Positions 27,363 through 45,440 of a stretch of 46,025 nucleotides of DNA are shown here, one piece after another. The position numbers and the translations under genes were made by a program. Where the stretch lies: IMG/VR virus record IMGVR_UViG_3300006033_000040, positions 1 through 46,025 of that record; one strand, written 5' to 3'. Under the pieces are notes generated by a model that had not been told where the DNA came from, did not search any database, and saw nothing but the letters and a program-made list of their open reading frames with translations. Origin of the DNA: a virus. Position 1 is the first letter of the stretch. Each line of letters starts with the position of its first letter.

Positions 27363-30300
27363 ATGCCGCGTCCGTGGAGTGAAGTTGAGCAGTCCCGTGA
27401 ATTCCAAGACCTGAGCCGAGACGACCGAGAGGCGGCCCGCGCTCAATACTGGCGGGATGTGGTTCGGCCACAGATCCAGAACCGCGAGGATCTTGCGCCA
27501 GCCCGACAAGCCTTCTTTGCAAGAAGCGGCACATCAGTCGCGCGTGAACAGTTGCCTGACGAGGTGCAGTACAGCACTGCAGCCGGCGGCGGCCGCGGTG
27601 GGCAAGGCGGCCCGACCGCCGATGAACTGGCAAAGGCCAATCCTCCGAGCTTGGTGCAGCGCGTCAAGCGCGGCCTGTCCGAGGCACTCACGCCAAAGGT
27701 GACTGCGGCGCAGATGATCGAACAGCCGCGTGGGCCCGATGAGCCTGTGCCGGTGGAAGACCTCCAGCGCCGCATGCTTGAGGCGACAGACCCAGCAGCA
27801 GCCGCGCGCCGTGATGCGCAGGAACTCGCCCAGGCCGCATACCGTCCTGGCCAGATGTCTGCATCGCCAGACCGCACAACGCTTCAGCGTGTGTTGGACA
27901 CCACCAACCGCAAGCCGCTCGACAACTCCCTTGGCGGCCTGCTTCTGGAGACCGGCGGCGACGCTGCCCGTGGCGCGGTGCGCGGTGTGGAGAGCATCGG
28001 CACATCCGGGTGGGGCCTGGTGCGCGCTGGCGCGGATGTCGTCGGCGCTGACAAAGTGGCCGGCGTGGCAGCCGAGGCAGGCAAGGCCGGGCGGCGCTCC
28101 ATGGATGCGATCGCCAGCCCTGACCGCAACTCCACCACGCAACAGGTGTTCGAGAGCACCTTTGCGAACGTCCCTGTGCTGCTGGGCCTGGGCGCCGGAA
28201 GCAAGGCGTTGGTGGCCATGGGCGGCATGTCCGCGGGCAGTGCCTACGATGAGGCGCGCAACGCAGGGAAGCCCGTTGACGAGGCGCTGGAGCGCGGCGT
28301 GACGCACGGCTTGGCCGAGATGCTGGGCGAGAAGGTCGCACTTCCAGCGCTTGGGAAGCTCTTCTCACGCGCAGCAACGAAGGTTTCGACGCCAGAGCTT
28401 GGCCATCTCCTGGCCGATCTGCTGGTGAAGGAGCAGGTTGGCGAGCAGGCAACCACTGCCATGCAGGACGCCTACGACAAGTTTGGGAGCGGTGGCACGC
28501 GGCCCTACATGACGCTGAGCGACTACCTGGACGATGCCATCCAGACATCGAAGGTCACGCTGGGCCAGTCGCTGCTGATGGGCGGCGGCGCCGCGGTGTT
28601 GAACAAGTTGGCGCAGCCGAAGGCGGTTGACCCGCTGGCGATGCGCCAGGCTTTCACGCGGGTGGCAAACGGCCATGGCCTGAATCCGAAGGCGGCGGCG
28701 GCGATCGAGCAGCAGGCCGCGCAACTTCCGCCAGAGAAGGCACCTGGGTTCATCGAGCGCGCGATCGGCGCCATGGAGAGGCGTGGCCTGGTCAAGAAGG
28801 CAGGTGCATCGTTGGCCTGGCAGCAGGCAGTGCAGCAGTCCGCGGCGGCTCAGCCGGAGATCATCAACCAGCCCAACGCGCCAACTGCGGCAGACATGGG
28901 GTGGGCAGATGGAGTGCAGGCCAGCCAGCAAGGCCCCGCCAATGCCGATCAAGTGGCAACGTTGCCACTTGAAAACACTGGTGGTCCGGCCCAGGTGACC
29001 GCCCAAGTGTGGAATGGCCAACCCTTCGAGCCCGCCGGGCAGCCCATGGCCGGGCCTGATGGCCGCCAGTACCTGCCCGCAATGGCCGCCGGCAAGCCGG
29101 TGTTCATCCCCGTTGACGAGATCACTCAGGAGGCTCCCGCCGATGTCAGCATTCCAATGGCACCTTCTCCCGTGGCTGGAGGAAGCGGTGATGTCGCAGG
29201 CGGTGTCGATTCAGGAGGCCTGGCAGGTGCAGGACCAGCAGTTGATCCACTTGTACGAGGATCTGGTGACGATGCCGGAATGCTTGCGGCCAACGATGGA
29301 GCGGCTGCACCTGTTCGAGATGGAATCGCCCAGCGACCTCCTGCACTGACCACGCCGGCCCAGCCCACCACGTTGGGCGAGATGGTCAGTGCCCGCCCGA
29401 ACAACGCGCCCGGGTTCACTGCGGCAGATGTGATGCGCCCTGCCCAGCCCGAGGCAGTACAGCCAGAGCCGCCGGCCGCGCCAGCGCGCCGCGCCGACTT
29501 CGAGAGCGAAGATGCGGTGCGGCAGTTCCTGAGCGAGCAGCGCCGCAACTCCAGCATCCGCATCAGCGCTGCGCCGGTGCAGACCGAAAGCGGCTGGAGC
29601 TTCGTCACGAAGGACGAGCCGGGCTACGACGAGGCGCGCCAGGCGGCCACATCCCGCGCCGAGCAGCGCAGCCAGCCGCCGGCACAGGATCTGGCCGGCG
29701 AGAAGCTGAATCGCAGCTGGACGGCCTTCGCGCCAGAGACAGGAACCAAAGGCGTGCCGCGGGCAGAAATGCCGCAAGTGAAGGCCGGCGACCGCAGCGC
29801 GCTTGTGCAGTACCTGCGGGCCCGCGGCGTGGAGTACGAGGCCGACGCCGAGATCCCCGCAGTTGACCTGAAGCCGACACAGGCTGAGTTCTCGCCGTCG
29901 AAGGTCAAGCAGGCCATGGAGCACCAGGGCGGAGACCGCTCGATCCTCGTCAGCTCAGACGGCTACGTGGTGGACGGGCATCACCAGTGGCTCGCCAAGC
30001 GCGAGGCCGGTGAGCCCGTGAAGGCGATTCGCCTGAGCGCCCCGATCGACGAACTTCTGCCGCTGGTGCGCGAGTTCCCGTCAGTTGGTAAGGCCGCAGG
30101 CGCAACGAAGCCAACGGCGCAGCCTGCTGACGCCGCCCAGCAAGCAGCGCCCGCACCAGAACAGGCGCAAGCAGCGCCCGCGGCCGCAGAAGGCGAGCCG
30201 GTAGTGGTTCATCGGACAAGCAAGGGCAAAGAACTCACCGGCTACGTGCGCAAGCTCACCCCCGCGCAGGCACAGGCCATCGACCCGTACACCTTCCGCA

Positions 30301-33300
30301 AGGGCGAGAAGGGCATGTACTTCGTGCGCAAGGAACGTGCCGATGCATGGGATGCACAGCAATCCGCCGCTGCTGAGATGGCCGCCCCGGACTACTGGCA
30401 GAAGAAACTTGACGCAAAGAAATCAACCGCCCCAACCCAAGAAGCAGCAACGCCGCGAGAAGCTGCGCCCGCAGCCGAGCCAGCCGGTGGAGTTCCCGCA
30501 GCCGGAAGTGCCACCGTGGAAGCCGATGGGGTAAAGGTCGAACCCAAGCCAGGATCTCGTGTCACCAATCCGGACGGCAGCTACTACACGGTTCCGAAGC
30601 CCGAGAGAAAGTCCGCCGGCAAGGTCACTGGGGTGAAGCCAGCGCCAGCGCCAGGCACACGCAAGGCTGAGATGCGCCCGTATCGGCGCAGTGATGGCAG
30701 CATCGGCTACGAGGCGGTTCCGATCGTTCCGCCACCCGCACCGGAGCCGGCGGCCGAGATCGACCCGATGGAATCAGCTCCTGCTGTCAGCAAGAACACG
30801 GTCTTCACCGAGCCCGCCCCCGCCAAGAAGCCGGCCGACATGGCTGGGTTTGTCGGTGTGAGCGACGTTGAGCTCGCACTGCGCCGGCTGTCCAGCGCCG
30901 AGCAGCGACCTGGCGACATCAAACTTGGCAACGACAAGTTCGTGACGCTCGATCAGGCCGTGGCCGCCGCGCGCGAAGCTATGACCCCGAAAGAATGGGG
31001 CATGCCGTTCCAGTTCATGCGCGTGTTGGACATCGCGCCGGTGGACTGGGGCCGGATGGTCAATGCGATGAAGGAGCCGGCCGCGGCGCCAGCCATCAGC
31101 GCCAACACCGTTTTCACCGAGGATGCGGCCGCCAAGGCCCGCGCGCTGCTGAAGTCGAAGCTGGGCCAGCTGAACAGCGGCATCGACCCCGAGGTGATGA
31201 TGGCCGGCATCACGCTGGCCGGGTACCACATCGAGAAGGGCGCACGCACCTTCGCCGCCTACAGCAAGGCGATGCTGGCCGACCTGGGCGACGCGGCCCG
31301 GCCGTACCTCAAGAGCTGGTACCTTGGGTTGCGGTTCGACCCGCGCGCCGCGGCATTCGCGGGCGACATGGACAGCGCCTCCACTGTGGAAGCGGCCAGT
31401 GTTGAGCAAGCCGCCGAACCGGCGCAAACTACCGGGGCAACGGAGGCCCCCAATGATGCACGCAACCTGGATCGCGCAAGCCCGAGCGCACTGGAAGGAG
31501 TTCCAGCCGCGCCGGTTCAAAGAGCTGCTGGCCAGCGGGAGGCTGAACGAGGCGCTGGAGACAGCCGCCCAGCAGACGGCGGACGAGATGCAGCAGCTGG
31601 TGAACGAGGGGTTCAACCGATCGGAGGCGTGGGAGGCGGTGAGGGAGCTGTACCTGTTCCCGCCCGAGGAAAGCGCGCAGGACGAGGCTCCGGAGTCGCC
31701 CGGATTCGAGACAGCGCAGAGCGTGAGCAGCCTTCTGGGCAACCTCAAGATGCCGGGCGAGAGGGACGACTAGACCCGCCTCAGTTTGAGCCTGCCGACT
31801 TCACCATTGAGCAGGATTTCGCCCTGGGCGAGGGCGGTCAAAAAACCAAGTACCGCCTGAACGCCGATGCGATCCGCCTGGTGAAGGCGCTCGAAACCGC
31901 CGGCCGCACTGCGACGGTGGACGAGCAGCAGGTGCTGGCCAAGTACGTGGGCTGGGGTGGTATTCCGCAGGCCTTCGACGAGAAGAATGCCGACTGGGCC
32001 AAGCAGCACGCCGAACTGCGCGAGCTGCTGACGCCCGACGAGTGGGCTGCGGCCGTGCAGAGCACGCAGTACGCGCACTACACCTCCAAGGAGATCATCG
32101 GCGGCATGTACACGGCGCTGCGCCGCATGGGCTTCACCGGCGGCGCAACGCTGGAGGCCGGCGGCGGGGTGGGCAACTTCATCGGTCTGATGCCTGCTGA
32201 CATGCGCACCGCTGGCAAGGTGACGCTGATCGAGCGCGAGACCATCGCCGCCATGATCGCCAAGCACCTGTACCCGCGCCAGAACGTGCGGCGCGCCGAT
32301 TTCACCGAGTTCGGCAAGGGCCAGGATGGGCAGTTCGATGCCCAGGTCGGCAACCCGCCGTTTTCGTCCACCACGCTGACCGACCAGTCTGGCCGCAAGC
32401 ACTTGTCTGGCCTGAGCGTCCACAACTACTTCATCGCCAAGGGCATCGACCTGCTGCGAGAGGGCGGCGTCTCTGCGGTGGTGGTGTCGAATTCGTTCCT
32501 CGATGCGAAGAACGACCGGGCCCGCGCCTACATCGCTGACCGGACCCGCTTCCTGGGCGCGATCCGCCTGCCAAACAACGCCTTCGCCAAGAACGCCGGC
32601 ACCGAGGTCACGACCGACATCGTGTTCTTCCAGAAGCTGCCCGAGAGCGAATGGGGAAGCAAGGCGGCCAAGGCTGACGCCAAACGCTGGGTTGGCGTTG
32701 AGGCGGTTGCTGACGCGGCCGGCGGCAAGGATCTGGCGCTGAATGCCTACTTCGCCGCCAACCCCGACATGATGCTGGGACAGTGGGGCCGCTTTGGCAC
32801 CATGTACGGCCCTGACCAACCCGCCCTGGTGGCGAAGGACGGCCAGGACACGGCTGCGCTGCTGGCCCGCGCGGTGAAGAACCTGCCCGAGGGGATCTAT
32901 ACCCCGGCGGCCGTGGTGAACACCGCCGCAATGCGTGACGCTGGCATCGAGGCGCTGCACGACAAGACGGTGGCAGAAGGTGGCTTCTACAACCACACCA
33001 CCGGCCTGTGGCGGCGCCTGCCTGACCGCGCCGGTGAAGAGGTGGCCGTGCGTGTCACACCAGAGACGATGTGGAGTGCGAAACAAGCACTCGGGCAAGC
33101 CGGGTTCCAGCGCCTGCAGCGCCTGGCCGACATGCGCCGCACCGTGCGCGACCTACTGGCCGCCGAGATCGCCGACGACAAGGCCATGGACGGCCTGCGC
33201 AAGACCCTCAACGAGCAGTATGACGCCTATGTGGCCGACGCTGGCCCGATCAACGACCGCGCGACCGCGCGCCTGTTCGAGGATGACCCTGACTACCCGC

Positions 33301-35105
33301 TGCTGGCCGCCCTGGAAACCGACTTCGAGCCCGGCATGGGCCCGGCTGCAGCAAAAGCCAACGGCATCAAGGCGTACAAGGCCAAGGCCAAGAAGTCAGC
33401 CATCTTTGACCGCCGTGTGGTGGATGCCCGCAAGACGGTCACGCGCGCTGACAGCCCGAGCGACGCCCTGAACGTGGCCATGGCCGAGCGTGGCCGGCTG
33501 GACGCGCAGTACATCGGCCAGCTGCTTGGCAAAGACCCGGACGGCGTGCTGGAAGAGCTGGCCGGCGGGGATGCGCCGCTGCTGTTCAAAGACCCGTCCA
33601 CCGGCGAGTACGTGCTTCGAGATGCCTACCTGTCCGGCAACGTGCGCGCCAAGCTGCTGCAGGCGCGCCGCGCCGGCATGATGGCCAACGCACGGGCGTT
33701 GGAGGCCGTGCAGCCCGAGGACGTGCCCGCCAGCCAGATCGCCGCGCGCATCGGCTCGCCCTGGGTGCCCACCGAGGTCTATCAGGACTTCGCCGCCCAG
33801 CTGCTGGGTGATGGAACGAAGGCCGCGGTGCAGTACATGCCGCTGAACTCGTCCTTCAGTGGCGTGATCCGACCCGGGTCTGACGTGGCCTCGCGCACGA
33901 CGTTCGGCACACCCGCCTACCCGGCTGAAGACCTGCTGTTCGCGCTGATGAACAACCGCGAGATCAAGGTCACGTACCGGGACAACGACGGCAAGACCCA
34001 CGTCGACCGCGCCGCAACCGAGCTCGCCAACGAAAAGGCGGCCGAGATCAAGGACAAGTTCCAGGACTGGCTGTTCAAGGATGCCGACCGGGCCGAGTCG
34101 CTGGTGCGCGCCTACAACGACGCCAACAACAACTACGTCACCAGGCAGTACGACGGAAGCTGGATTCGCTTTCCTGGCAAGGTGCCCGACAGCATCATCA
34201 AGTTCCGCCGGCACCAGCGCAACGCCATCGCGCGCACGATCCAGGACCGCACGGCGCTCTACGATCATGTCGTCGGGGCGGGCAAGACTTTTACTGCCAT
34301 CGCTGCCGCAATGGAGCTCAAGCGCACCGGCCTGGCCCGCAAGCCCATGATCGTGGTCCCGAACCACCTTGTGAAGCAGTGGGCCGCCGACTTCTACCGG
34401 CTCTACCCTGGCGCCAAGATCTTGACCGCCACGAAAGCGGACTTCGAGCGCGCCAACCGCCGCAAGTTCCTGGGCAAGATCGCCACCGGCGACTGGGACG
34501 CGGTGATCATCGCGCACTCGTCGTTCGGCTTCATCAAGCCGGCCCCCGAGTTCGAGGCCCGCTTTAACGAGGAGCAGGTCGAGCAAGTGATGGCCACCAT
34601 CAAGGCTGTGGAGGATGGTGACGGCGACGAGCGCGCCAAGAAGCGCACCGTCAAGCAGTTGGAGAAGATGAAGGAGCGGCTGGAAAACCGCGTCGCCAGC
34701 CTGCGCGAGAAGTCCATCGACGATCTGCTGGACCTGCAGCAGTTGGGCGTCGACCAGCTGTTCGTGGACGAGGCGCACTGCTTCCCGTGGGACGCCATGG
34801 TGACGACAGAACTCGGCCACATGCCGATTGGTGAGCTTGTTGAGAGCCGAACATCTATTCGCGTTCTATCTGTAGATTTATCAACTGGCGCGCTGGCCTG
34901 GAAGCCGGTGACCAACTGGTTCACCAATGCGCGAGAGCACCAAATGGTGCGCATCCACCACGATTACGGCGTGCTGGAGTGCACCGCGAACCATCAGGTT
35001 TGGACGCATGAAGACGGATATGTCGCCGCTGGCGACCTCAAGCCACACCACACCCTGCGCATCGCCGACGCCGAAGAGGCGCGGTCCTGTGCCGAAGCCT
35101 GTTGA
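27363..35105 (+). CDS. Giant DarB-like protein, N-terminal half, ending in split intein N
   Basis: 2580 residues: N-extein 1-2472 plus N-intein 2473-2580. Residues 1-480 are virion-type helical sequence. A ParB-like domain lies near 808-910 (YVVDGHHQWLAKREAGEPV). Long Ala/Pro/Glu linkers flank it. An N6-adenine methylase (about 1480-1750) has EAGGGVGNFIG and NPPF (Asn1664). The SF2/SNF2 helicase begins near 2270 with VVGAGKTFTA (Lys2308) and reaches DEAH (2469-2472), where the intein starts. DarB of phage P1 combines methylase and helicase and protects ejected DNA from type I restriction; the same role is inferred here. Only a TGA separates this frame from its continuation. Two small genes are nested in its linkers. 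Confidence 0.85.
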   Translation: MPRPWSEVEQSREFQDLSRDDREAARAQYWRDVVRPQIQNREDLAPARQAFFARSGTSVAREQLPDEVQYSTAAGGGRGGQGGPTADELAKANPPSLVQRVKRGLSEALTPKVTAAQMIEQPRGPDEPVPVEDLQRRMLEATDPAAAARRDAQELAQAAYRPGQMSASPDRTTLQRVLDTTNRKPLDNSLGGLLLETGGDAARGAVRGVESIGTSGWGLVRAGADVVGADKVAGVAAEAGKAGRRSMDAIASPDRNSTTQQVFESTFANVPVLLGLGAGSKALVAMGGMSAGSAYDEARNAGKPVDEALERGVTHGLAEMLGEKVALPALGKLFSRAATKVSTPELGHLLADLLVKEQVGEQATTAMQDAYDKFGSGGTRPYMTLSDYLDDAIQTSKVTLGQSLLMGGGAAVLNKLAQPKAVDPLAMRQAFTRVANGHGLNPKAAAAIEQQAAQLPPEKAPGFIERAIGAMERRGLVKKAGASLAWQQAVQQSAAAQPEIINQPNAPTAADMGWADGVQASQQGPANADQVATLPLENTGGPAQVTAQVWNGQPFEPAGQPMAGPDGRQYLPAMAAGKPVFIPVDEITQEAPADVSIPMAPSPVAGGSGDVAGGVDSGGLAGAGPAVDPLVRGSGDDAGMLAANDGAAAPVRDGIAQRPPALTTPAQPTTLGEMVSARPNNAPGFTAADVMRPAQPEAVQPEPPAAPARRADFESEDAVRQFLSEQRRNSSIRISAAPVQTESGWSFVTKDEPGYDEARQAATSRAEQRSQPPAQDLAGEKLNRSWTAFAPETGTKGVPRAEMPQVKAGDRSALVQYLRARGVEYEADAEIPAVDLKPTQAEFSPSKVKQAMEHQGGDRSILVSSDGYVVDGHHQWLAKREAGEPVKAIRLSAPIDELLPLVREFPSVGKAAGATKPTAQPADAAQQAAPAPEQAQAAPAAAEGEPVVVHRTSKGKELTGYVRKLTPAQAQAIDPYTFRKGEKGMYFVRKERADAWDAQQSAAAEMAAPDYWQKKLDAKKSTAPTQEAATPREAAPAAEPAGGVPAAGSATVEADGVKVEPKPGSRVTNPDGSYYTVPKPERKSAGKVTGVKPAPAPGTRKAEMRPYRRSDGSIGYEAVPIVPPPAPEPAAEIDPMESAPAVSKNTVFTEPAPAKKPADMAGFVGVSDVELALRRLSSAEQRPGDIKLGNDKFVTLDQAVAAAREAMTPKEWGMPFQFMRVLDIAPVDWGRMVNAMKEPAAAPAISANTVFTEDAAAKARALLKSKLGQLNSGIDPEVMMAGITLAGYHIEKGARTFAAYSKAMLADLGDAARPYLKSWYLGLRFDPRAAAFAGDMDSASTVEAASVEQAAEPAQTTGATEAPNDARNLDRASPSALEGVPAAPVQRAAGQREAERGAGDSRPADGGRDAAAGERGVQPIGGVGGGEGAVPVPARGKRAGRGSGVARIRDSAEREQPSGQPQDAGREGRLDPPQFEPADFTIEQDFALGEGGQKTKYRLNADAIRLVKALETAGRTATVDEQQVLAKYVGWGGIPQAFDEKNADWAKQHAELRELLTPDEWAAAVQSTQYAHYTSKEIIGGMYTALRRMGFTGGATLEAGGGVGNFIGLMPADMRTAGKVTLIERETIAAMIAKHLYPRQNVRRADFTEFGKGQDGQFDAQVGNPPFSSTTLTDQSGRKHLSGLSVHNYFIAKGIDLLREGGVSAVVVSNSFLDAKNDRARAYIADRTRFLGAIRLPNNAFAKNAGTEVTTDIVFFQKLPESEWGSKAAKADAKRWVGVEAVADAAGGKDLALNAYFAANPDMMLGQWGRFGTMYGPDQPALVAKDGQDTAALLARAVKNLPEGIYTPAAVVNTAAMRDAGIEALHDKTVAEGGFYNHTTGLWRRLPDRAGEEVAVRVTPETMWSAKQALGQAGFQRLQRLADMRRTVRDLLAAEIADDKAMDGLRKTLNEQYDAYVADAGPINDRATARLFEDDPDYPLLAALETDFEPGMGPAAAKANGIKAYKAKAKKSAIFDRRVVDARKTVTRADSPSDALNVAMAERGRLDAQYIGQLLGKDPDGVLEELAGGDAPLLFKDPSTGEYVLRDAYLSGNVRAKLLQARRAGMMANARALEAVQPEDVPASQIAARIGSPWVPTEVYQDFAAQLLGDGTKAAVQYMPLNSSFSGVIRPGSDVASRTTFGTPAYPAEDLLFALMNNREIKVTYRDNDGKTHVDRAATELANEKAAEIKDKFQDWLFKDADRAESLVRAYNDANNNYVTRQYDGSWIRFPGKVPDSIIKFRRHQRNAIARTIQDRTALYDHVVGAGKTFTAIAAAMELKRTGLARKPMIVVPNHLVKQWAADFYRLYPGAKILTATKADFERANRRKFLGKIATGDWDAVIIAHSSFGFIKPAPEFEARFNEEQVEQVMATIKAVEDGDGDERAKKRTVKQLEKMKERLENRVASLREKSIDDLLDLQQLGVDQLFVDEAHCFPWDAMVTTELGHMPIGELVESRTSIRVLSVDLSTGALAWKPVTNWFTNAREHQMVRIHHDYGVLECTANHQVWTHEDGYVAAGDLKPHHTLRIADAEEARSCAEAC
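28949..28972. repeat. 24-bp perfect palindrome, copy 2
   Basis: TCAAGTGGCAAC is followed by its reverse complement, inside the giant gene and read as QVATLPLE in a linker. It is identical to the core of the palindrome at 9648. Being in both coding and non-coding DNA suggests an inserted mobile-like element or a protein-binding site and not a chance hairpin. Confidence 0.85.
29143..29349 (+). CDS. Nested small gene in giant-gene linker
   Basis: 68 residues in the +1 frame relative to the giant ORF. A perfect AGGAGG lies nine bases before the ATG. The product (MSAFQWHLLPWLEEAVM start, QDQQLIHLYEDLVTMPECL middle) has normal protein composition with predicted helices. The giant frame here is low-complexity Ala/Gly/Asp linker. 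That contrast suggests the small frame is the constrained one. No family is recognised. Function is unknown; a small partner of the giant protein or an independent host-takeover protein are options. Confidence 0.6.
   Translation: MSAFQWHLLPWLEEAVMSQAVSIQEAWQVQDQQLIHLYEDLVTMPECLRPTMERLHLFEMESPSDLLH
31453..31773 (+). CDS. Nested small gene in giant-gene linker, helical
   Basis: 106 residues from ATGATG, with GGAGG six bases upstream, in a different frame from the giant ORF. The product reads as a real helical protein: WIAQARAHWKEFQPRRF, LLASGRLNEALETAAQQTADE, FNRSEAWEAVRELYLFPPEE. I recall similar conserved hypothetical proteins in phage and prophage genomes. The giant frame here is Ala/Gly/Arg-rich and disordered-looking. 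It ends before the methylase domain starts. The longer frame from 31324 lacks an SD. Confidence 0.72.
   Translation: MMHATWIAQARAHWKEFQPRRFKELLASGRLNEALETAAQQTADEMQQLVNEGFNRSEAWEAVRELYLFPPEESAQDEAPESPGFETAQSVSSLLGNLKMPGERDD
34779..35102 (+). other. Split intein, N-terminal fragment (108 residues)
   Basis: Starts with Cys1 right after the helicase DEAH box. Block A is CFPWDAMVTTELGHMPIGEL. Block B is LECTANHQVWT with Thr69 and His72, the residues that assist the N-S acyl shift. It continues GYVAAGDLKPHHTLRI and ends at TGA. The DNA is AT-richer than its surroundings at the start (around 34800-34890), a sign of separate origin. Length matches known N-inteins (about 90-110 residues). Confidence 0.9.
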
Positions 35106-35736
35106 GAAGGTATGCGAGCAATGCCACAAGCCGTTCCAGTTCAAGTCGTCGGGGGCGGCGAACAACGCCAAGAGGCGGTTCTGCAGCAACCCATGCGCGG
35201 CAACGTGGCGGATGACACTGGAGCACGTTCGTGCCCCCATCCTTGCCGGTCTTTCGGAGGGGCAGAAACTTGCGGCTGCGCGCCGAAGGGGGTCAAAGGA
35301 TCCTGCCGCTTCTCAACGGATGAGGGAGCTGAATCCGACAGCCGATCCAGTGGTCATCGAGAAGATTCGAGCGGCGATGGCCGGAAGGAAGCTGGTGGAG
35401 CGCGGGGGAAATGGGAAGCTGACGCGCCCGCAGCTGTTGATTCACGAGGCAACCGGGATGGAGATGGAGTTCGTGGTGAACACGTCCCCGATCCGAGCCC
35501 TGATGCCGGGCCTTCCCAAGCACTACAAGTTGGATTTGGCGAATCCGGTAGCGATGGTGGCAGTAGAGGTGGATGGGAGGTCACACAAGTCGCCGGCCGG
35601 CAGGGATCGGGATGCCCGCAAGAACCGGGCGCTCGAAGCTCTCGGGTGGTGCGTGTTGAGGTTCTGGAACCAGGAGGTGGACGAGAACCTGCCCGGGGTG
35701 GTGGAGAAGATCCACCGGTGTATTGCATCGAGGTAG
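35089..35736 (+). CDS. Free-standing homing endonuclease, zinc finger plus Vsr-like (DUF559) nuclease
   Basis: 215 residues from a GTG with GAGG nine bases upstream, overlapping the end of the N-intein by 17 bases. Residues 9-36 form a zinc finger (Cys9, Cys12, Cys32, Cys36). A basic NUMOD3-like region (MRELNPTADPVVIEKI) follows. The C-terminal half is a PD-(D/E)xK/Vsr-like fold: YKLDLANP (Asp149), AVEVDGRSH (Glu160, Asp162, His166), RDRD near 172-175, and ALEALGWCVLRFW. This resembles the endonuclease family found inserted between split-intein halves. It would cut intein-free copies of the helicase gene and drive homing. It overlaps the C-intein frame. Confidence 0.85.
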   Translation: MPKPVEKVCEQCHKPFQFKSSGAANNAKRRFCSNPCAATWRMTLEHVRAPILAGLSEGQKLAAARRRGSKDPAASQRMRELNPTADPVVIEKIRAAMAGRKLVERGGNGKLTRPQLLIHEATGMEMEFVVNTSPIRALMPGLPKHYKLDLANPVAMVAVEVDGRSHKSPAGRDRDARKNRALEALGWCVLRFWNQEVDENLPGVVEKIHRCIASR

Positions 35737-35780
35737 CCGACACACACAACTTCTTTGCTGATGGGGTTCTGGTCTCCAAC
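35646..35780 (+). other. Split intein, C-terminal fragment
   Basis: In the frame of the downstream gene: VVRVEVLEPG, a Gly/Pro-rich loop, then VYCIEVADTHNFFADGVLVSN written as blocks F (VYCIEV...HNFFA) and G (VLVSN). It ends Ser-Asn before extein Ser+1; penultimate Ser instead of His also occurs in Npu DnaE. The first 30 codons overlap the endonuclease gene in another frame. Confidence 0.82.
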
Positions 35781-38700
35781 AGCTTCAAGAACCTCATGTT
35801 CAGCACCAAGATGCAGAACGTACAGGGCCTGGGCGACTCGAAGGGCTCCAAGCGCGCCTACGACATGTACGTGAAGACGCGCCAGATCATGGACCAGAAC
35901 GGCCGTGGACAGGGCGTTGTCTTCATGACCGGCACGCCGGTGAGCAACAGCCTGGCTGAGATGTACCACATGATGCGGTACCTGATGCCTGAGCAGGTGA
36001 AGCAGCTGGGGTTCGAGAGCTTCGACGCATGGGCCAACACCTTCGCATCGGTGAATCAGGTGTGGCTGCAGAAGGCCAGCGGGGACGGCTTCAAGGCCAG
36101 CAACCGCATGAGCAGCTTCGACAACACTGCCGAGCTGCTGAAGCTGTTTGATCAGGTGTCCGACACGGTGACGATGGACGACATCAAGGCCGCGTTCAAG
36201 GAAGAGAACGGCGGCAAGGAATTCCCGCTGCCGGTGCTGAAGACAGGCCGCCGTCAGCCGGTGTCGATGGACAAGAGCCCCGCGCTCGATGCCTACATGG
36301 GTGAGATCGCCAAGCGCGCGGCCGCGCTGGAGGCGCGCAAGGGCCCACCACAGAAGGGCGACGACAACATCCTGGTGGTGATGGGTGACGCCCGCAAAGC
36401 TGCCATGGACATCCGCCTGGTGGACAAGACTGCTACAGCGCGCGAGCCCGGCGGACGAATCGACCGATCTGCCGACGAAATCGTGTCGCGCTGGAAGCAG
36501 CACGCCGAACACCGCGGCACTCAGCTGGTGTTCTCCGACATGGGCACGCCACTGAAGTCGGCCGCGAAGGAGCTGGCCGAATACAACGAGATCAAGGCGC
36601 GTACCGAGCCGCTGTCCGATGAGCAACTGCGCGCCAGCGCCGACTTGGGTGATGAGGCTGCCGCCGCCAAGCTGGCCGCCGCCGAAGAGGCCCAGGCCGA
36701 GTTGGATGCCAAGGGCCGCGACTGGCTGGACGCCATCCAGGCCGCACTGCGCGGGTTCTCGGTCTATGACGACCTGCGCGCGGCGCTGGTGGAGCGCGGC
36801 ATCCCGGCCGAGCAGGTCGCCTTCATCCACGACTTCAACACCGACGACCAGAAGGCCGCCCTGTTCCGCAAGGTCAACAACGGCGATATCCGGGTTCTGA
36901 TCGGCAGCACGCCGAAGATGGGTGCCGGCACCAACGTGCAGAAGCGCCTGGTGGCGCTGCACCACCTGGATGTGCCGTGGCGGCCATCGGACGTTGAGCA
37001 GCGCGAGGGGCGGATCATCCGGCAGGGCAACATGCTGGCCGACACGATCCCGGGCTTCGAGGTCGAGATCCTGGCCTACGTGACCCGCGACACCCTGGAC
37101 ATGCGCATGTGGCAGATCCAGGAAACGAAGCTGAAGATGATCAACCAGCTTCGCACGCGGCAGATCGAGCGTGAGATCGAGAACGCCTTTGAGGACATGG
37201 AGCTGTCCGCCGGCGAGATGCAGGCAGCGGCCACCGGCAACATGGACCTGCTGAAGGAAATCCAGCTGCGCACCGACGTGCAGAAGCTGGAGAAGAAGCA
37301 GCGCGCCTTCGACGCCACCCGCTCCGACCTGATCGGCCGACGCCGCCGTGCCGAGCAGGATGTGAAGCGCCTGCCGGCTCGGATCGAAGAGGCGCAGAAG
37401 CTCGCCGACGCCACCAAGGAGGTGGTCGACGCGGTGGCTGCCTTCAAGAGCGGCTTCAAGGTGACGATCAACGGGAAGGCCTACACCGATCGGGCCGCCG
37501 CCGGCTTCGAGCTGCGCCGCCTGGACGATGCCACCGAGACCGGCGAGGACGGCAAGGAGAAGAAGGCCAAGCTGTCGGTGGAGCTCAACGGCGAGACCTA
37601 CACCAGCCGCACAAAGATGGCCGAGGCTTTCGCGCGGCTGTCAGGCGACGTTGAGCCGTTCCTGTTCAGCACCGATGGGCAGACGTTCCACCGCCGCGCC
37701 GACGCCGCCCAGGCCATCCAGACCACGGTGGCTGACGCTGTGGCGGAAGAAGCCCGGCGCGAGATCGGCGCCATCGGCCCCTACAAGGTGACGGTGGAAG
37801 GCCAGAAGGACAAGCGCGGCGAGCAGTTCGTCGAGATCGTGGCAGAAGCCGGCGGCCAGGTGCTGGACACCACCGTGCCCGTGCCGTCGAGCCTGAAAGA
37901 CCCCGAGCAGCTGGCCCGCAAGGTGGCCGAAGACGTGCTCAAGGCCGCCCGCTCGATGGTTTGGGGCACGACTGACAACCTGCGCTGGGAGACTGGCCAG
38001 TTGGAGCGCGCCCGCAAGACCCTGGCCGATCTTGAATCCACCGAGACCACCGAGGCATGGCCCGATGCTGACAGGCTGGAGAAGGCCCGCGCTGCTCACA
38101 AGGAAGTGTTGCAGCGCCTGAGCAGCACCAAGACGGAGGCGCCTCCCGCTGAGTTCTCGGACGGCGCGAAGGCCCAGGCCGTTGCCGCCGTTGAGGCTGA
38201 TGTCGCCAAGGTGCGCGAAGGCTGGGCCAACGCCCCGGAAATCATCGTCGCTTTCGACATGAACGACCCGAAGGTGCCGAGCGAGGCCCGCCAAGACTTC
38301 GACAAGCTGCGCCGATCTGGCGCCGCCGGCTCGCCCGAGGGGTTCTTCCTCAACGGCAAGGTGTACCTGCTGGCCAGCCAGCTGCGCACACCGGCTGACG
38401 CTGCCCGCGTTCTGGCACACGAGGCGCTTGGGCACTACGGCCTGCGCGGCGTGTTCGGCAACGACCTGAACGGCATGCTTGACCGCCTGGCCAAGGCACT
38501 GCCAGAGAAGGTGGGCGCGAAGGCCAAGCAGTACGGCCTGAACATGGCCGACTCCGAGCAGCGCCGGCAGGCGGCCGAAGAGTATCTGGCCGAGCTGGCG
38601 CAGACCCGGCCGACCAGCACCTGGGTGCAAGCCCTGCTGGCGCGCGTGCGCAACTGGCTGCGCGAGAACCTGCCGGGCTTCGACAAGCTGAAGATGACGG

Positions 38701-41700
38701 ATGCCGATGTCATCGCGCAGTTCATCGCGCCGGCGCGCGGCTGGGTGGAGCGCGGCCGCGGCGCCGCTGCCGGCCCGACCCGTTTCCAGATCGTGTTCCA
38801 CGGCACGCCGCACCGCGGCATTGAGCAGTTCAGCACGGACAAGATCGGGACGGGCGAGGGCGCCCAAGCCTACGGGTGGGGGCTCTACATGGCTTCGCGC
38901 AGGGAAGTGGCCGAGTTCTATCGCAAAAAGCTGACTCCCGGCGGCGATGCGCTTCGCATTGATGGCAAGAAGCCAGAGTTTGATATGGGGGCTCCTGGCG
39001 GGCTACCGGCCACACAGGACGGAGCCTTAACCAACAAGGCCATCCTGATGCTCCAAGAGGCTCAATCGTCTTCAGGCTTGGATAAGGTGCTCGCTAGGTA
39101 TGCCGACCCGGCCGTGGCGGCGCGAGCCCGCCAACTGCTGACGCGCGCAACCTGGGTGCCTGCCGGTCAGCTCTACGAGGCCGAGATCCCCGAAGACGAC
39201 ACCATGCTGCACTGGGACAAGCCGCTCAGCGAGCAGCCGGAGAAAGTGCGGGATGCGCTCGCCAAAGACGCGGATTTCAAGGACAAGAACACGCTGCGCG
39301 GGATGCGCGACCGTTACGGCGCATCCGGAAACGCTGATCCCACTGGAGAGCAGATCTACAACCACGCCACCCTATCGTTCCATGCATTTGATGGTGGCCT
39401 GGCTGATGGCACTCCAGCCGGCGCATCCAAATACCTGGCTTCGCTCGGCATCAAGGGCATCAAGTACCTGGATGGCACCAGCCGCAGCGCGGGCGAGGGG
39501 AGCTACAACTACGTGATCTTCGATGGCTCCGACGCCAAGATCACGAAGACCCACTTCAGCCTCGCCGACAAGGCCCGAGCCGTGGCCGCCGGCAAGATCC
39601 CTGGCGGCCAGCTGTTCGCCGACATGGCCGTGAAAACCGCCGAGGATGGCCGGCTGCACTGGTGGCACAAGAGCCTGGGCAAGCCGTACAACCTAGCCCA
39701 GCGCAACAAGCACTTCAAGCGCGTGTTCGATGCCGTGCAGGGCTTCATCGCTGACTCGACGAAATACACCGCCGAGGCGGCGCAGCTAGCGCCCGACGTG
39801 ATCCCGCTGCTGGACAGCCTGAGCGACATCATCCCGGCCCGCCTGAAGGTGTTTGGGCACGAGTTCGGCAAGGCGCCGATCAGCGTGGCCGACTCGAAGA
39901 TGCTGGCCACCACCGTGTTCCATGGCACGCTGGCCTGGACGCGGGACCGCAATGGCCGCCCAGTGAAGATCGAAGACGCCGAGGCCGCCGCCGAGGGCCT
40001 GGACACCGAGCAGAAGATGCGCATCCTGCTGCGCGACGGCAAGGTGACGGCTGATCAGGTGCAGCGCATGCAGGCCAACGTGCTGGACATGTACGAAGGC
40101 TGGGTGCGCAACCAGTTCGAGCAAGCCTACCTGCGGCCTGGCATCGTGTTCACCCCGGCCGAGTTGAAACATCACTTCGGCGCCGACGATGGGCAGATCA
40201 AGCTGTACCAGCAGTTCCGCACCGCGGTGGACCGCAGCCTGACCGACCTGGCCGTGTCCGACATGCTGCGCGTGGCCGGCGCCGATGCGGCCGAGATCGC
40301 CGACGAGGTGATGGCGCTGCACGACGTGGCTGCCGCGTCCGACAAGTTGGCGCAGCACCTGCGCGACCTGGGACAACTGGAGCAGGCACGCGCTGGCGTG
40401 CTGGAAGATGCCGTGAACAGCATCCTCGATAAGGCCGAAAAGGCGGGAGACCTGATGGCCCGCGGTTACGCCCCTCTGATGCGCTTTGGCACCCACACTG
40501 TGGATGTCGTCGACCAGGACGGCGAGCGCGTGTTCTTCGGGATGTTTGAGACCGTGCGTGAGGCCCGGGAGATGACGGCCAAGATGAAGGCCGAGTACCC
40601 CGAGGCGGCTGTCACGCGCGGTACGCTGTCCGAGAAGCAGCACGAGCTGTACGCTGGCGTGAGCCCTGAGACGCTGGAGCTATTCGGCGAGATCCTGGGT
40701 CTGGACGCACAGGGCGACAAGGCCAGCGACATCGCATTCCAGGAATACCTGAAGAAGGTCAAAAACCAGCGCAGCGCGATGAAGCGACTGATCCACCGCA
40801 AGGGGATCGCCGGCTACTCCGAAGACGCCGGCCGGGTGCTGACCAGCTTTGTGTTCTCGAACGGCCGACAAGTCGCGGGGAACCTGCGGCAGGCGTCGAT
40901 CAAGACGGCTCTGGAGGCCATCCCGAAAGAGCAGGGCCAGGTGCGTGACGCGGCCATTGCTGAGGTCAAGACGGTGATGAACCCAACCGAGACCGCTGCG
41001 GCTGTGCGCCAGCTGATGTTCGCCCACTACCTGGGCGGCAACATCTCGTCGGCTGTGGTCAACCTGACCCAGACCATGAGCACCACGCTGCCCTACCTGA
41101 GCCAGTGGGGCGCTGGCAAGGCGGCGAAGGAGCTCGCCAAGGCTTACCGCACGCTGCGTGTGGCCAAGATCGCCGACCCAGCCCTGAAGGCGGCCTTGCA
41201 ACGCGCCGACGAGGAGGGCATCACGGCGCCGCAGGAAATCCACGAGATCATGGCACAGGCCAGCGGCCGGGCATCGCTGCGCACCGGCGACGGGACGCTC
41301 AAGGGAGCGGCCATCGCCCGCACCCGCAACGCTGTCAGCCGGGTTGGCCTGGCCTGGGGCAAGCCGTTCTCGTGGGCGGAAATGGTCAACCGCCGGGCAA
41401 GCTTCATCGCGGCCTACCGCACAGCCATCCGCGAGAACCTGGGCGACCCATACGAGTTCGCCAAGAAGGTGGTCAACGAGACCCAGTTTCTGGCCAACAA
41501 GGGGAACCGATCAGCAGCCGAGCGCAGCGCCGCCGGCAGCGTGCTTCTCACCTTCAAGGGGTTTGGCATCCAGACGGTGGAGCTGCTGAACCGCTTGTGG
41601 ATGCAGGGCGAGGCCGGTTCGCCCGAGCGCCGTCAGGGCCGAAAGGCTGCGCTGATGATGCTGGGCATGCTGTTCCTGATGGGCGGCGCTGGTGGCCTGC

Positions 41701-42605
41701 CGTTCGCAGGCGATGCGGAAGACCTCATCGACGGGATGATGCAGCACCTGGGCAAGGACTGGGTGACGAAGGAGAAGCGTGAAGACGTGGTGCGCGCCGT
41801 GGCCGGCAAGTTGGCTGAGCTGTTTGGTGCTGACCCTGGCATGCGCGCAGCCGCGGAAACCTGGGCCTGGCGCTTCGCCGACCGTGGTGTGTCCGGCCTG
41901 CCGGGCGCCCCATTCGATGTGGCGGGCCGGCTGGGCATGGGCAACATGATCCCGGGAACCGGCGCGCTGAAGGTCAAGCAGGACCGCACCAAGGATCTGG
42001 AAGAGCTTGGTGGGCCGGCGTGGAGCTTCTTCACGACGTACTTCAAGGCCGCCGAGATGATCGCCGAGGGCGTGGGCGACACAATCAACTCGGGCGATCC
42101 GCGCGGCGCCACTGAGGGCGCCGGCCGAGCCATCGCCCAGGCCGCCCCGGTGGGCATCCGCAACGCCCTCAAGGGCGCCGAGATGCTGAAGGACGGCAAG
42201 TACCGCGATACCGCAGGCAACAAGGTGGTCGACACCACCACAGCTGATGCGCTGTGGAAGATGATCGGCTTCAACCCCAACCGGGTGGCTGAACGCCGGG
42301 CATCCGAGGGTGTGGTTCGTGACAAGATCGCGCTCAACCGTGAAACCGCCTCACGCATCATCGACCAGATCGCCCGCGGCGTGGACGAGAAGGACGATGC
42401 CAGAACAGCCCGCGCCATGAAGATGCTTGACCTGTGGAACCAGACTTACCCCGACAACACCATTGACCCGCAGCGCGTCACCAACGCAGTGAAGGCCAAG
42501 GTGAAGCGGATGAACCAGGACAGCACCGACAGGCTGATCCGTTCCGCCCCGAAGTCCATGCGTGGCGCGGTGATGCAAGAGCTGCGCGAAGAGGCCGCCC
42601 AATGA
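35646..42605 (+). CDS. Giant DarB-like protein, C-terminal half, led by split intein C
   Basis: 2319 residues from GTG 35646: C-intein of 45, then C-extein of 2274 beginning Ser-Phe-Lys-Asn-Leu. No good SD is visible at 35646/35649; GTG 35718 has GGAG 11 bases upstream but would truncate the intein. The helicase continues with GTPVSNSLAEMYHM and GAGTNVQ/REGRIIRQG (36920-37030), then a long coiled coil. HEALGHYGLRG (about 38418) is a zincin-like motif. ART-like domain: FHGTPHRGIEQF, GEGAQAYGWGLYMA, GEGSYNYVIFDG (38790-39530). The C-terminal third carries LPD38-like helices and a hydrophobic stretch (MMLGMLFLMGGAGG). Probably a virion protein acting in the infected cell. Confidence 0.8.
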   Translation: MVRVEVLEPGGGREPARGGGEDPPVYCIEVADTHNFFADGVLVSNSFKNLMFSTKMQNVQGLGDSKGSKRAYDMYVKTRQIMDQNGRGQGVVFMTGTPVSNSLAEMYHMMRYLMPEQVKQLGFESFDAWANTFASVNQVWLQKASGDGFKASNRMSSFDNTAELLKLFDQVSDTVTMDDIKAAFKEENGGKEFPLPVLKTGRRQPVSMDKSPALDAYMGEIAKRAAALEARKGPPQKGDDNILVVMGDARKAAMDIRLVDKTATAREPGGRIDRSADEIVSRWKQHAEHRGTQLVFSDMGTPLKSAAKELAEYNEIKARTEPLSDEQLRASADLGDEAAAAKLAAAEEAQAELDAKGRDWLDAIQAALRGFSVYDDLRAALVERGIPAEQVAFIHDFNTDDQKAALFRKVNNGDIRVLIGSTPKMGAGTNVQKRLVALHHLDVPWRPSDVEQREGRIIRQGNMLADTIPGFEVEILAYVTRDTLDMRMWQIQETKLKMINQLRTRQIEREIENAFEDMELSAGEMQAAATGNMDLLKEIQLRTDVQKLEKKQRAFDATRSDLIGRRRRAEQDVKRLPARIEEAQKLADATKEVVDAVAAFKSGFKVTINGKAYTDRAAAGFELRRLDDATETGEDGKEKKAKLSVELNGETYTSRTKMAEAFARLSGDVEPFLFSTDGQTFHRRADAAQAIQTTVADAVAEEARREIGAIGPYKVTVEGQKDKRGEQFVEIVAEAGGQVLDTTVPVPSSLKDPEQLARKVAEDVLKAARSMVWGTTDNLRWETGQLERARKTLADLESTETTEAWPDADRLEKARAAHKEVLQRLSSTKTEAPPAEFSDGAKAQAVAAVEADVAKVREGWANAPEIIVAFDMNDPKVPSEARQDFDKLRRSGAAGSPEGFFLNGKVYLLASQLRTPADAARVLAHEALGHYGLRGVFGNDLNGMLDRLAKALPEKVGAKAKQYGLNMADSEQRRQAAEEYLAELAQTRPTSTWVQALLARVRNWLRENLPGFDKLKMTDADVIAQFIAPARGWVERGRGAAAGPTRFQIVFHGTPHRGIEQFSTDKIGTGEGAQAYGWGLYMASRREVAEFYRKKLTPGGDALRIDGKKPEFDMGAPGGLPATQDGALTNKAILMLQEAQSSSGLDKVLARYADPAVAARARQLLTRATWVPAGQLYEAEIPEDDTMLHWDKPLSEQPEKVRDALAKDADFKDKNTLRGMRDRYGASGNADPTGEQIYNHATLSFHAFDGGLADGTPAGASKYLASLGIKGIKYLDGTSRSAGEGSYNYVIFDGSDAKITKTHFSLADKARAVAAGKIPGGQLFADMAVKTAEDGRLHWWHKSLGKPYNLAQRNKHFKRVFDAVQGFIADSTKYTAEAAQLAPDVIPLLDSLSDIIPARLKVFGHEFGKAPISVADSKMLATTVFHGTLAWTRDRNGRPVKIEDAEAAAEGLDTEQKMRILLRDGKVTADQVQRMQANVLDMYEGWVRNQFEQAYLRPGIVFTPAELKHHFGADDGQIKLYQQFRTAVDRSLTDLAVSDMLRVAGADAAEIADEVMALHDVAAASDKLAQHLRDLGQLEQARAGVLEDAVNSILDKAEKAGDLMARGYAPLMRFGTHTVDVVDQDGERVFFGMFETVREAREMTAKMKAEYPEAAVTRGTLSEKQHELYAGVSPETLELFGEILGLDAQGDKASDIAFQEYLKKVKNQRSAMKRLIHRKGIAGYSEDAGRVLTSFVFSNGRQVAGNLRQASIKTALEAIPKEQGQVRDAAIAEVKTVMNPTETAAAVRQLMFAHYLGGNISSAVVNLTQTMSTTLPYLSQWGAGKAAKELAKAYRTLRVAKIADPALKAALQRADEEGITAPQEIHEIMAQASGRASLRTGDGTLKGAAIARTRNAVSRVGLAWGKPFSWAEMVNRRASFIAAYRTAIRENLGDPYEFAKKVVNETQFLANKGNRSAAERSAAGSVLLTFKGFGIQTVELLNRLWMQGEAGSPERRQGRKAALMMLGMLFLMGGAGGLPFAGDAEDLIDGMMQHLGKDWVTKEKREDVVRAVAGKLAELFGADPGMRAAAETWAWRFADRGVSGLPGAPFDVAGRLGMGNMIPGTGALKVKQDRTKDLEELGGPAWSFFTTYFKAAEMIAEGVGDTINSGDPRGATEGAGRAIAQAAPVGIRNALKGAEMLKDGKYRDTAGNKVVDTTTADALWKMIGFNPNRVAERRASEGVVRDKIALNRETASRIIDQIARGVDEKDDARTARAMKMLDLWNQTYPDNTIDPQRVTNAVKAKVKRMNQDSTDRLIRSAPKSMRGAVMQELREEAAQ

Positions 42606-42727
42606 GGGCCGTCGCCATGCTGTTCTGGTGCGTGACGCTAGTCAGCCTGGGCATGCTGGCCTGGTCACTTGGTGGTTGGCCGCTGCTGGTTGTCTACGTG
42701 GCCGCGGTGATCTCAATCTGGCGATGA
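42602..42727 (+). CDS. Tiny two-helix membrane protein
   Basis: 41 residues, ATG overlapping the giant gene stop (ATGA). Two hydrophobic segments (AMLFWCVTLVSLGMLAWSL and WPLLVVYVAAVISIW) joined by a Gly-Gly turn, with Arg at both ends. It overlaps the 3' end of the convergent integrase by 34 bases. Function is unknown; the size suits a holin-like or superinfection-related peptide. Coupling to the giant gene suggests co-expression. Confidence 0.5.
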   Translation: MRAVAMLFWCVTLVSLGMLAWSLGGWPLLVVYVAAVISIWR

Positions 42728-43737
42728 TCGGTGGTGGCGCCGTCTGGCACCTCGACCCGCTTGAACTTGGCCGCGCCCATGCCGCGCTCGTTGAGGTAGA
42801 GCTGGGTCATTTCCTGATTCGAGTGGCCCAGCAGCGTTTGCACCACGGCAGGCGGCATTCCCTGCTCGACGTACATGCGGGCGCTGAGCGAGCGCACCTC
42901 GTGCAGTGAGGGCCACTTGCGGCGTGCGTAGGCGTTGCGGCCCTCTGACATCACGATCAGCTCGTGAAACCGGGTGCTGAGCGAACCCTTGCTGATCGAC
43001 CGGCCGCCGCGCATGCGCAGCAGATTCGGCCCGGGCTTTGCGCATGCCCGGCACACCTCGATCACGTCACCCACCGTCATACCGATTTCGTCCATGCGCA
43101 GGGACAGCGGGATCTCCAGGCGTGAGCCGAATTCCTTGCCGGCTTTCTTCTGCTGCTCAAACTGCAGCACCTCTTGGCCATCCGCCGCGGTGACGATGTT
43201 CGCCTCGGTCATCAGCGACAGGTCGGCGCGGCGCTGGCCGATCACCAGGCCCAGCAGCAGCATCGCTTCCACCCAGCGCGGCCAGGTGCCATCCTGCGAG
43301 CGCCGCCACATCCGGTGCCACGTCTCGAACTTCAGCCGCTCGCGCATGACCCGGTGCTTGGGCATCTTCACGAACATGGCTGGCGACGTGTCGCACCAGT
43401 CATTGGCCACTGCCTCGCTGTAGACCATGCGGAGCTCGCCCAAGACCCGCTGCGCCGTGCTGGTGTTGTCGGGCAAGAATTCGGCCCGGATGGCCGTAGC
43501 GATCTCGTGGGCCTTTAGCGACCGGATGCCGCGCGTACCCCACAAACGGCGGATGTGCCGCAGGATGCCCACGCGGTTCTTCACCGTCTGGGGCGCATAG
43601 CCGGCTGTGCGTATCTGCTGCTCGTGCACGTCCAGCCAGTCAGCCAGCGGCCGGTCATTCGGCACCGTGGCGATGGGCTGGGCCTGGGCTGACGCCTCGG
43701 CGGCCTTCAGCAACTTTTTCAACTGCTTCTTCTTCAT
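42694..43737 (-). CDS. int: Tyrosine-type phage integrase
   Basis: 347 residues from the ATG at 43737 (MKKKQLKKLL); the longer frame runs through unrelated DNA to 44286. The N-terminal SAM-like core-binding domain is around LADWLDVHEQQIRTAGY. The catalytic domain holds Arg in GQRRADL, His-Arg in HEVRS, His in LLGHSN and Tyr in LYLNERG, so the active site is complete. It catalyses site-specific recombination between phage and bacterial attachment sites. Its promoter region contains an 18-bp palindrome and is shared with a divergent small gene. The 3' end runs into the convergent small membrane gene. Confidence 0.85.
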   Translation of the reverse strand: MKKKQLKKLLKAAEASAQAQPIATVPNDRPLADWLDVHEQQIRTAGYAPQTVKNRVGILRHIRRLWGTRGIRSLKAHEIATAIRAEFLPDNTSTAQRVLGELRMVYSEAVANDWCDTSPAMFVKMPKHRVMRERLKFETWHRMWRRSQDGTWPRWVEAMLLLGLVIGQRRADLSLMTEANIVTAADGQEVLQFEQQKKAGKEFGSRLEIPLSLRMDEIGMTVGDVIEVCRACAKPGPNLLRMRGGRSISKGSLSTRFHELIVMSEGRNAYARRKWPSLHEVRSLSARMYVEQGMPPAVVQTLLGHSNQEMTQLYLNERGMGAAKFKRVEVPDGATTDHRQIEITAAT

Positions 43738-43745
43738 GAGGCATA

Positions 43746-43763
43746 GTTTCGTGTACACGAAAC
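43746..43763. promoter_or_regulatory. 18-bp palindrome, putative operator
   Basis: GTTTCGTGTACACGAAAC is perfectly symmetric. It lies nine bases upstream of the integrase start and 43 bases before the divergent small gene. TAAAAT at 43794-43799 could be a -10 box for the latter. It is well placed for a dimeric repressor controlling both. Confidence 0.65.
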
Positions 43764-43806
43764 ATGCGCGACAACCCCCTATTCGGCTGCACGTAAAATC
43801 GCAGAA

Positions 43807-44001
43807 ATGGCAACACGAAAACCATCTGCGAAATCCCCTGGCCGGCCTCGACTTGTCGAGGATGGGAATTGGAAGCCGATCCATTGCAAGGCGCCGCCAG
43901 AGCTGCACGCCGAATACCTGGCGCTGGGCGGATCGCAGTGGCTGCGTGATGCGTTGGCGGCCTCGCTGAGAAAGCGGGCGAAGGCCAAGCCGCCCGGCTA
44001 G
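43807..44001 (+). CDS. Small basic protein, ribbon-helix-helix-like
   Basis: 64 residues, divergent from the 347-residue integrase. A basic N-terminus (ATRKPSAKSPGRPRL) precedes a strand-helix-helix pattern: KPIHCKAPPELHAEYLALGG, then SQWLRDALAASLRKRAK. This matches the ribbon-helix-helix layout of small repressors and plasmid-type regulators by eye. It may bind the palindrome upstream of it and regulate integrase and itself. Its stop codon shares CTAG with that of the convergent second integrase. Excisionase is an alternative. Confidence 0.55.
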   Translation: MATRKPSAKSPGRPRLVEDGNWKPIHCKAPPELHAEYLALGGSQWLRDALAASLRKRAKAKPPG

Positions 44002-45352: not shown

Positions 45353-45440
45353 TGGCGGAGGCTGTGAGATTCGAACTCACGGACGGTTGCCCGTCGGCAG
45401 TTTTCAAGACTGCTGGTTTAAACCACTCACCCAAACCTCC
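45353..45440 (-). tRNA. tRNA-Ser(TGA)
   Basis: Acceptor GGAGGTT/AGCCTCC, anticodon loop CTTGAAA (TGA), a long variable arm (GACGGG...CCGTC) and T-loop TTCGAAT identify a class II serine tRNA, with GCCA encoded at the 3' end. The 3' end faces the integrase, as at many phage attachment sites. It starts 14 bases after apaH. Confidence 0.92.

Follow-up and report, generated by a model that had tools for sequence, protein, structure and literature searches.

Fractured genes, in which an EDxHD/Vsr-like endonuclease is inserted into a split intein, were reportedly described by Dassa and colleagues in 2009. Passages of three papers (PMC3653736, PMC6892783, PMC11766414) treat the combination of fractured genes, split inteins and Vsr-like nucleases as known. 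EDxHD enzymes occur in group I introns, with distant relatives in group II introns (PMC3943268, PMC12350094), and I-Bth0305I (PDB 3r3p), from a phage group I intron, is a homing endonuclease of this kind (PMC3943268). Endonucleases encoded out of frame are represented by the ShiLan domain and the Pacc40 insertion, HNH enzymes in phage methylases without a splicing element (PMC11855218). The analyses presented here concern a stretch of 46,025 nucleotides (the window), positions 1 to 46,025 of IMG/VR virus record IMGVR_UViG_3300006033_000040, in which a giant phage helicase gene appears to carry a homing intein in its motif II (DEAH), with the same DNA encoding, in +1, a zinc-finger nuclease of the EDxHD/Vsr type. 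No intein whose homing endonuclease occupies an overlapping frame was found in the literature searched, although an earlier description is possible.

Taken as a whole, the observations are very probably best explained by a homing intein in motif II with a +1-encoded EDxHD nuclease, here apparently split. We also think it likely that the window belongs to a widespread, unannotated class of phage inteins, nearly all in helicase motif II, with the nuclease in +1 and one set of bases serving both for the last Hint strand and for the nuclease core; that fractured genes arise from this class via stops in the dispensable linker frame; and that the window represents that step with a single stop. The features on which the argument rests are the following, 'host frame' meaning the frame of the helicase gene.

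27363..42605, plus strand: giant DarB/PLxRFG-type gene as a whole (methylase, superfamily 2 (SF2) helicase, PLxRFG domain), interrupted exactly after the DEAH box
27363..34778, plus strand: N-extein, an open reading frame (ORF) with Pfam domains Eco57I, N6_Mtase and ResIII; methylase and SF2 helicase up to motif II DEAH
34779..35102, plus strand: intein N-part, with Cys1 block A, block B TxxH and Hint strands; TIGR01445; predicted local distance difference test score (pLDDT) >90 for residues 1–100
35074..35079, plus strand: Shine–Dalgarno-like AAGAGG, 9 nt upstream of the nuclease GTG
35089..35736 (GTG to TAG), plus strand: nuclease ORF of 215 amino acids, +1 relative to the host gene; zinc finger, linker and EDxHD/Vsr-like core
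35103..35105, plus strand: TGA, the sole host-frame stop between the intein ends, closing the first ORF
35106..35630, plus strand: host-frame intein linker, a shifted reading of nuclease DNA, predicted disordered and stop-free
35112..35114, plus strand: first host-frame ATG after the TGA, 6 nt downstream of the stop; candidate restart for the C-half
35631..35736, plus strand: dual-coding stretch, a Hint strand in the host frame and the nuclease sequence GWCVLRFWNQE...R in +1
35631..35780, plus strand: intein C-part, with strand RVVRVEVLE, blocks F and G and terminal Ser-Asn; TIGR01443; model strands 285–296 and 314–333
35781..42605, plus strand: C-extein, beginning SFKNLMF; remaining helicase, ART-PolyVal-like region and PLxRFG domain

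Both junctions can be read directly from the sequence (splice points are marked by a slash). The first reads ...FVDEAH/CFPWDAMVTTELGH..., with Cys1 at 34779 directly behind the DEAH box (34767–34778, helicase motif II), and the second reads VYCIEVADTHNFFADGVLVSN/SFKNL, with Asn at 35778–35780 and Ser at 35781. Block B is TANH (34983–34994), and the locus has the Cys1, TxxH, C-terminal Asn and +1 Ser of a class 1 Hint intein. Against the intein models, the N-terminal part scores 30.8 bits (intein_Nterm, TIGR01445, cut-off 24.5) and the C-terminal part 29.0 bits (intein_Cterm, TIGR01443, cut-off 15.6). The two parts lie in one host frame, interrupted by the TGA alone, with the nuclease in +1. 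An AlphaFold2 model of the host-frame product, in which the TGA was read as Trp, has confident Hint strands at residues 1–100 and 285–334 and a disordered linker between them (pLDDT mostly <50 at residues about 120–280). Its best PDB match is the split intein NrdJ-1 (8ubs; template modelling score 0.83 on the target over 343 columns, both halves aligned), and nearly all top PDB matches are inteins or related Hint domains. The C-half, of ~50 amino acids from about 35631, exceeds blocks F and G alone because a Hint strand sits within nuclease-coding DNA. Intein-free homologues read DEAH[E/M/L]FKNL at the insertion point, and the joint is therefore exact; the +1 Ser stands where they mostly have Glu, Met or Leu, and one intein-free relative, L123, naturally reads DEAHSFKNL. 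Given the intact residues and the predicted fold, we suggest that the window element would be capable of protein splicing.

The +1 product matches DUF559 (6e-14), and its EDxHD catalytic residues E160, D162, H166 and D175 occupy invariant alignment columns. The model (pLDDT 90.8) comprises a zinc-finger N-part and an EDxHD core whose top Foldseek matches, I-Bth0305I (3r3p) and 3hrl, are the same two structures found by profile search (E 0.0013 for 3r3p). It is a separate ORF with its own start, overlapping the end of the N-terminal intein half (IntN) and the C-terminal half (IntC). Membership of this family and the patchy insertion at one site in homologous genes suggest that the enzyme may cleave intein-free motif-II sites, that is, act in homing. 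It would be produced by internal initiation; in relatives a Shine–Dalgarno-like GAGG often lies within the last codons of the intein N-part. In L002 (2843–2862), and also in L022, L042 and L046, the codons for Asp-Glu-Val at the end of the N-part hold GAGG 9 nt before the nuclease ATG, and here the ribosome site of the nuclease seems to be written in conserved intein residues.

The original prediction, made from the sequence of the window, had placed an intein at the DEAH box, with Cys1 block A and a TxxH block B followed by a stop, and blocks F and G followed by the SFKNL extein in one frame; it had also named a Vsr-like (EDxHD) nuclease and a DarB-like giant gene. The direct reading and the two TIGR models bear out both ends, as do the two checks it proposed (comparison with intein-free homologues at the insertion point, and a search with curated intein models); the Eco57I, N6_Mtase, ResIII and PLxRFG matches agree with its host gene, and DUF559, the conserved motif and the recovery of 3r3p by profile and by fold with its nuclease. 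Two further points stood in part. The nuclease ORF does have a Shine–Dalgarno-like AAGAGG of its own but, instead of following the stop, starts 14 nt before it, in +1, and overlaps both intein halves; and the resemblance to a fractured gene is real, but a free-standing nuclease between independent halves is not supported in the form proposed, and nearly all relatives are uninterrupted overlapping inteins. It was the common frame of the N and C parts, the +1 nuclease and the single TGA that led us away from a simple fractured-gene reading.

Relatives were gathered from three IMG/VR scans with nuclease alignments and from one genome scan, and were classified with intein hidden Markov models built here. 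Alignments were needed, since single-sequence IMG/VR searches with the window nuclease and IntN gave no usable relative or one distant one; each of the three loci from the genome scan was an overlapping one, and a plasmid search matched distant DUF559 nucleases only. Both intein ends are present in 172 distinct phage or prophage loci, and in every one of them a single frame holds the N and C parts and the nuclease is in +1. The host frame is stop-free in 164 of them and holds stops in eight (one in the window, 15–35 in each of seven others), and in-frame fusion of the nuclease was found in none of the 172. Four loci without an intein are free-standing nucleases, and a further five run off the end of their contig. 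Nearly all insertions lie in motif II (DE/C in 135 loci, DE/S in 13, the others one to three residues further). Independent curated models confirm inteins in sampled loci, with PF14890 (Intein_splicing) covering both ends and exceeding its cut-off in L002, L028, L049 and L050. The best nuclease relatives, from Vibrio phage CP-T1, Corynebacterium phage phi673 and Vibrio phage 1.088.O, lie in +1 within one uninterrupted annotated helicase gene, with the intein at DE/C...HN/CHH. The public records of these three phages carry no annotation of the +1 nuclease (L002 2857–3609, L003 2962–3609, L004 2827–3618).

The host frame across the nuclease is kept open to a degree that stop null models reject as chance. 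When the nuclease was recoded with synonymous codons at host-gene usage in the 129 loci left after thinning at 75% identity, 1,522.7 host-frame stops were expected and none was observed, and the third frame held 2,146 stops against 1,536 expected. The seven loci with many stops hold 184 against 163.7 expected and are thus neutral, except for their last 40 codons (none against about 15.8). The simulations treat codons as independent and the loci are related by descent; since ancestry is shared, the totals are not independent events, and the contrast with the split loci is the better control. Pairwise ratios of non-synonymous to synonymous substitution rates (dN/dS) between closely related pairs, computed on the same DNA, are 0.02–0.45 (mostly 0.1–0.3) in the nuclease frame and 0.6–2.3 (mostly about 1) in the host frame. 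From the stop counts and the dN/dS contrast together, it follows that the +1 frame encodes a working protein and that the host frame over the nuclease is essentially only kept open. The open frame and this selection indicate that a host-frame precursor containing the intein is made.

The final part of the nuclease gene genuinely codes in two frames, the same bases specifying a Hint strand and the nuclease core. Its host-frame translation is RVxSV[E/S]..., the Hint strand preceding block F. The nuclease motif GWxVLRF requires an Arg but leaves the choice of its codon free; AGR is used in 34 of 48 loci, against 273 of 2020 Arg codons in the host genes and 264 of 667 elsewhere in the nucleases; AGR at this position gives Glu (or Lys) in the intein strand, and loci with CGN instead nearly always have Ser or Thr, and never Pro, as the host-frame residue. 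The window itself uses AGG here, though AGR accounts for only 10 of the 342 Arg codons of its host gene. The dual-coding end is stop-free even in the split loci.

Seven A+T-rich phage loci (L270, L275, L281, L290, L296, L298 and L301) carry fully split inteins, inserted at DE-x-H-x/C GAFPKP helicase sites; the C-half, of 58 amino acids, runs from a conserved ATG inside the nuclease gene, before IntC, and the +1 relation is retained together with the dual-coding end. In an unrooted tree of 145 nucleases they group as a single clade (100/99), with the overlapping-type L305 as its sister, and the window stands apart from them, grouped with L165, L174 and L182 (99/97), all overlapping. The simplest reading would be that overlapping forms gave rise to split ones on at least two occasions.

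Whether the TGA of the window is itself a working split is, in our judgement, an evenly balanced question. In favour of a split, the N-half stop lies 14 nt inside the nuclease ORF, the distance being 17–20 nt in each of the seven relatives that are fully split, and a host-frame ATG stands 6 nt behind it. Of the single-base changes that could create a stop in the dispensable stretch, about 6% would place it there, and its position is therefore suggestive only. Several observations weigh against a working split. The stop is single and known from one metagenomic contig, so that an error or a fresh mutation is possible. L155, L156 and L157 carry an intein without a stop at the window's identical site, in homologous giant genes (34–39% identity on each side of the insertion, the alignments ending at the insertion point), the stop is seen in no close relative of the window, and the 80 homologues scanned near the site are intein-free. 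The C-half has no strong ribosome-binding site, ATG 35112 standing close behind the TGA; a second candidate start, GTG 35646, begins inside the Hint strand, and GTG 35718 was rejected because the required Hint strand would be missing. Finally, the penultimate residue of the intein is Ser and not the usual His, as it also is in several uninterrupted relatives.

These points bear on the most serious rival explanation, that the window holds an ordinary uninterrupted overlapping-frame intein with a recent nonsense mutation, or a sequencing or assembly error, at 35103, the helicase being truncated in that individual. We regard this as quite possible, at somewhat less than even chances. There is one stop only, the frame after it is open (0 host-frame stops against 4.9 expected, p=0.0045), as expected for a very young stop, the same-site relatives L155–L157 are stop-free and no dedicated C-half start lies near IntC; but a restart of the C-half at ATG 35112 would predict the open frame just as well, and the place of the stop so near that of the seven split relatives is one that few single-base routes reach. 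It is very unlikely, by comparison, that the window is an ordinary fractured gene, with independent halves and an inserted free-standing nuclease, whose shared frame and overlap are an accident of a G+C-rich genome. Taken alone, the window might allow it, its open frame being only moderately unlikely (one host-frame stop against 4–5 expected, p about 0.02–0.1 by simulation), which is weaker evidence than that from the class; but 164 relatives, a good many of which are A+T-rich, have an open host frame where some 1,523 stops would be expected, the N and C parts share a frame without exception and the nuclease is always in +1, so that for the class this explanation is already contradicted.

Two other explanations would dispense with a split. 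Readthrough of the TGA or a programmed frameshift, by which the window would also make a contiguous precursor, would suit a host frame open on both sides of the TGA; but most genes of this phage (12 of 17) end in TGA, and no readthrough or shift signal was identified, no specific search beyond Rfam having been made, and we hold it to be highly improbable. That the interruption is removed as RNA, as a group I or II intron, we consider negligible: EDxHD nucleases do occur in introns (PMC3943268, PMC12350094), but the Rfam scan of the window found two tRNAs only and no intron, both ends are protein-intein motifs, and relatives keep the host frame open. We retain the interpretation that the window is a one-stop, probably split member of the overlapping-frame class of homing inteins.

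Considering a potential mechanism, we suggest that in the ancestral form, which is still common, ribosomes translating the host frame would read through the element and yield a precursor whose Hint domain is interrupted by a meaningless linker; the intein would splice itself out and restore the helicase (in the window, DEAH-SFKNL). Other ribosomes would start within the intein, at the internal Shine–Dalgarno site, and make the nuclease, which would cut intein-free DEAH sites, repair then copying the element. In the window, termination at the TGA would leave an N-half ending in IntN, and a restart, most likely at ATG 35112, would give a C-half with IntC, the two being joined in trans as a split intein. 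Termination beside the nuclease start could also link translation of the nuclease to the host ribosomes. Splicing of the protein, cutting by the nuclease, the internal start and the restart are all inferred steps.

Several loci and genes stand beside this class. In L018 (3989–4591), L265 and L288 an intein-free nuclease of the same family is immediately followed downstream by the beginning of a helicase-like frame, and these are possibly free-standing homing genes beside their usual target gene. Overlapping-frame inteins occur in bacterial assemblies too (L151, L152 and L153, from metagenome-assembled genomes of rumen Alphaproteobacteria and from Verrucomicrobium sp. BvORR106), perhaps within prophages. 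L150 was rejected as a member, being a conventional intein with an in-frame LAGLIDADG-like nuclease; its intein N-part (3999 onwards) is 37% identical to that of the window and lies in a different gene. PBC5 gp22/gp21 was rejected as a second fracture, because no intein blocks were found and the frame continues. As to the source of the window, its origin in a virus record, the head and tail genes and two integrase genes are consistent with a temperate phage. The two integrase-like genes are adjacent and overlapping, at the right end on the minus strand (42694–44286 and 43998–45167), with a tRNA gene near them (45356–45440).

The arrangement may point to a route by which a homing endonuclease can colonize an intein without fusion, and to a route from contiguous to split inteins that bears on the origin of naturally split inteins. 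It offers a set of overlapping genes with an internal control, the host frame being open in about 170 loci and stops being neutral in the split clade, and many new candidates, inteins and split inteins alike, for protein engineering; it also shows that nuclease genes have been overlooked in annotated phages such as CP-T1 and phi673.

With respect to known systems, the window shares with fractured genes a phage setting, a stop that breaks the host enzyme and a Vsr-like nuclease lying between an IntN and an IntC half, and the seven split relatives look like this type; it differs in that the nuclease overlaps the intein in +1, the halves lie in one frame with one stop, and most relatives are unsplit. 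As in the ShiLan domain and the Pacc40 insertion, a homing endonuclease occupies a shifted frame of an insertion without a host-frame stop; but ShiLan is an HNH enzyme with no intein domain and no splicing element, whereas the window has complete intein blocks and a Hint fold that flanks and partly overlaps an EDxHD enzyme, together with a Shine–Dalgarno-like site. I-Bth0305I has the same catalytic fold and motif, but it is intron-borne, not intein-borne, and its DNA-binding part differs. The split inteins NrdJ-1 (8ubs) and gp41-1 (6qaz) are the best fold matches of the host-frame product over both halves; the window intein differs from them in its long linker, which the shifted nuclease gene encodes. 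Conventional large inteins with an in-frame homing endonuclease, such as that of L150, have in common with it the splicing blocks and nuclease-based mobility, but there the nuclease is in frame and part of the precursor, whereas here it is out of frame and a separate protein.

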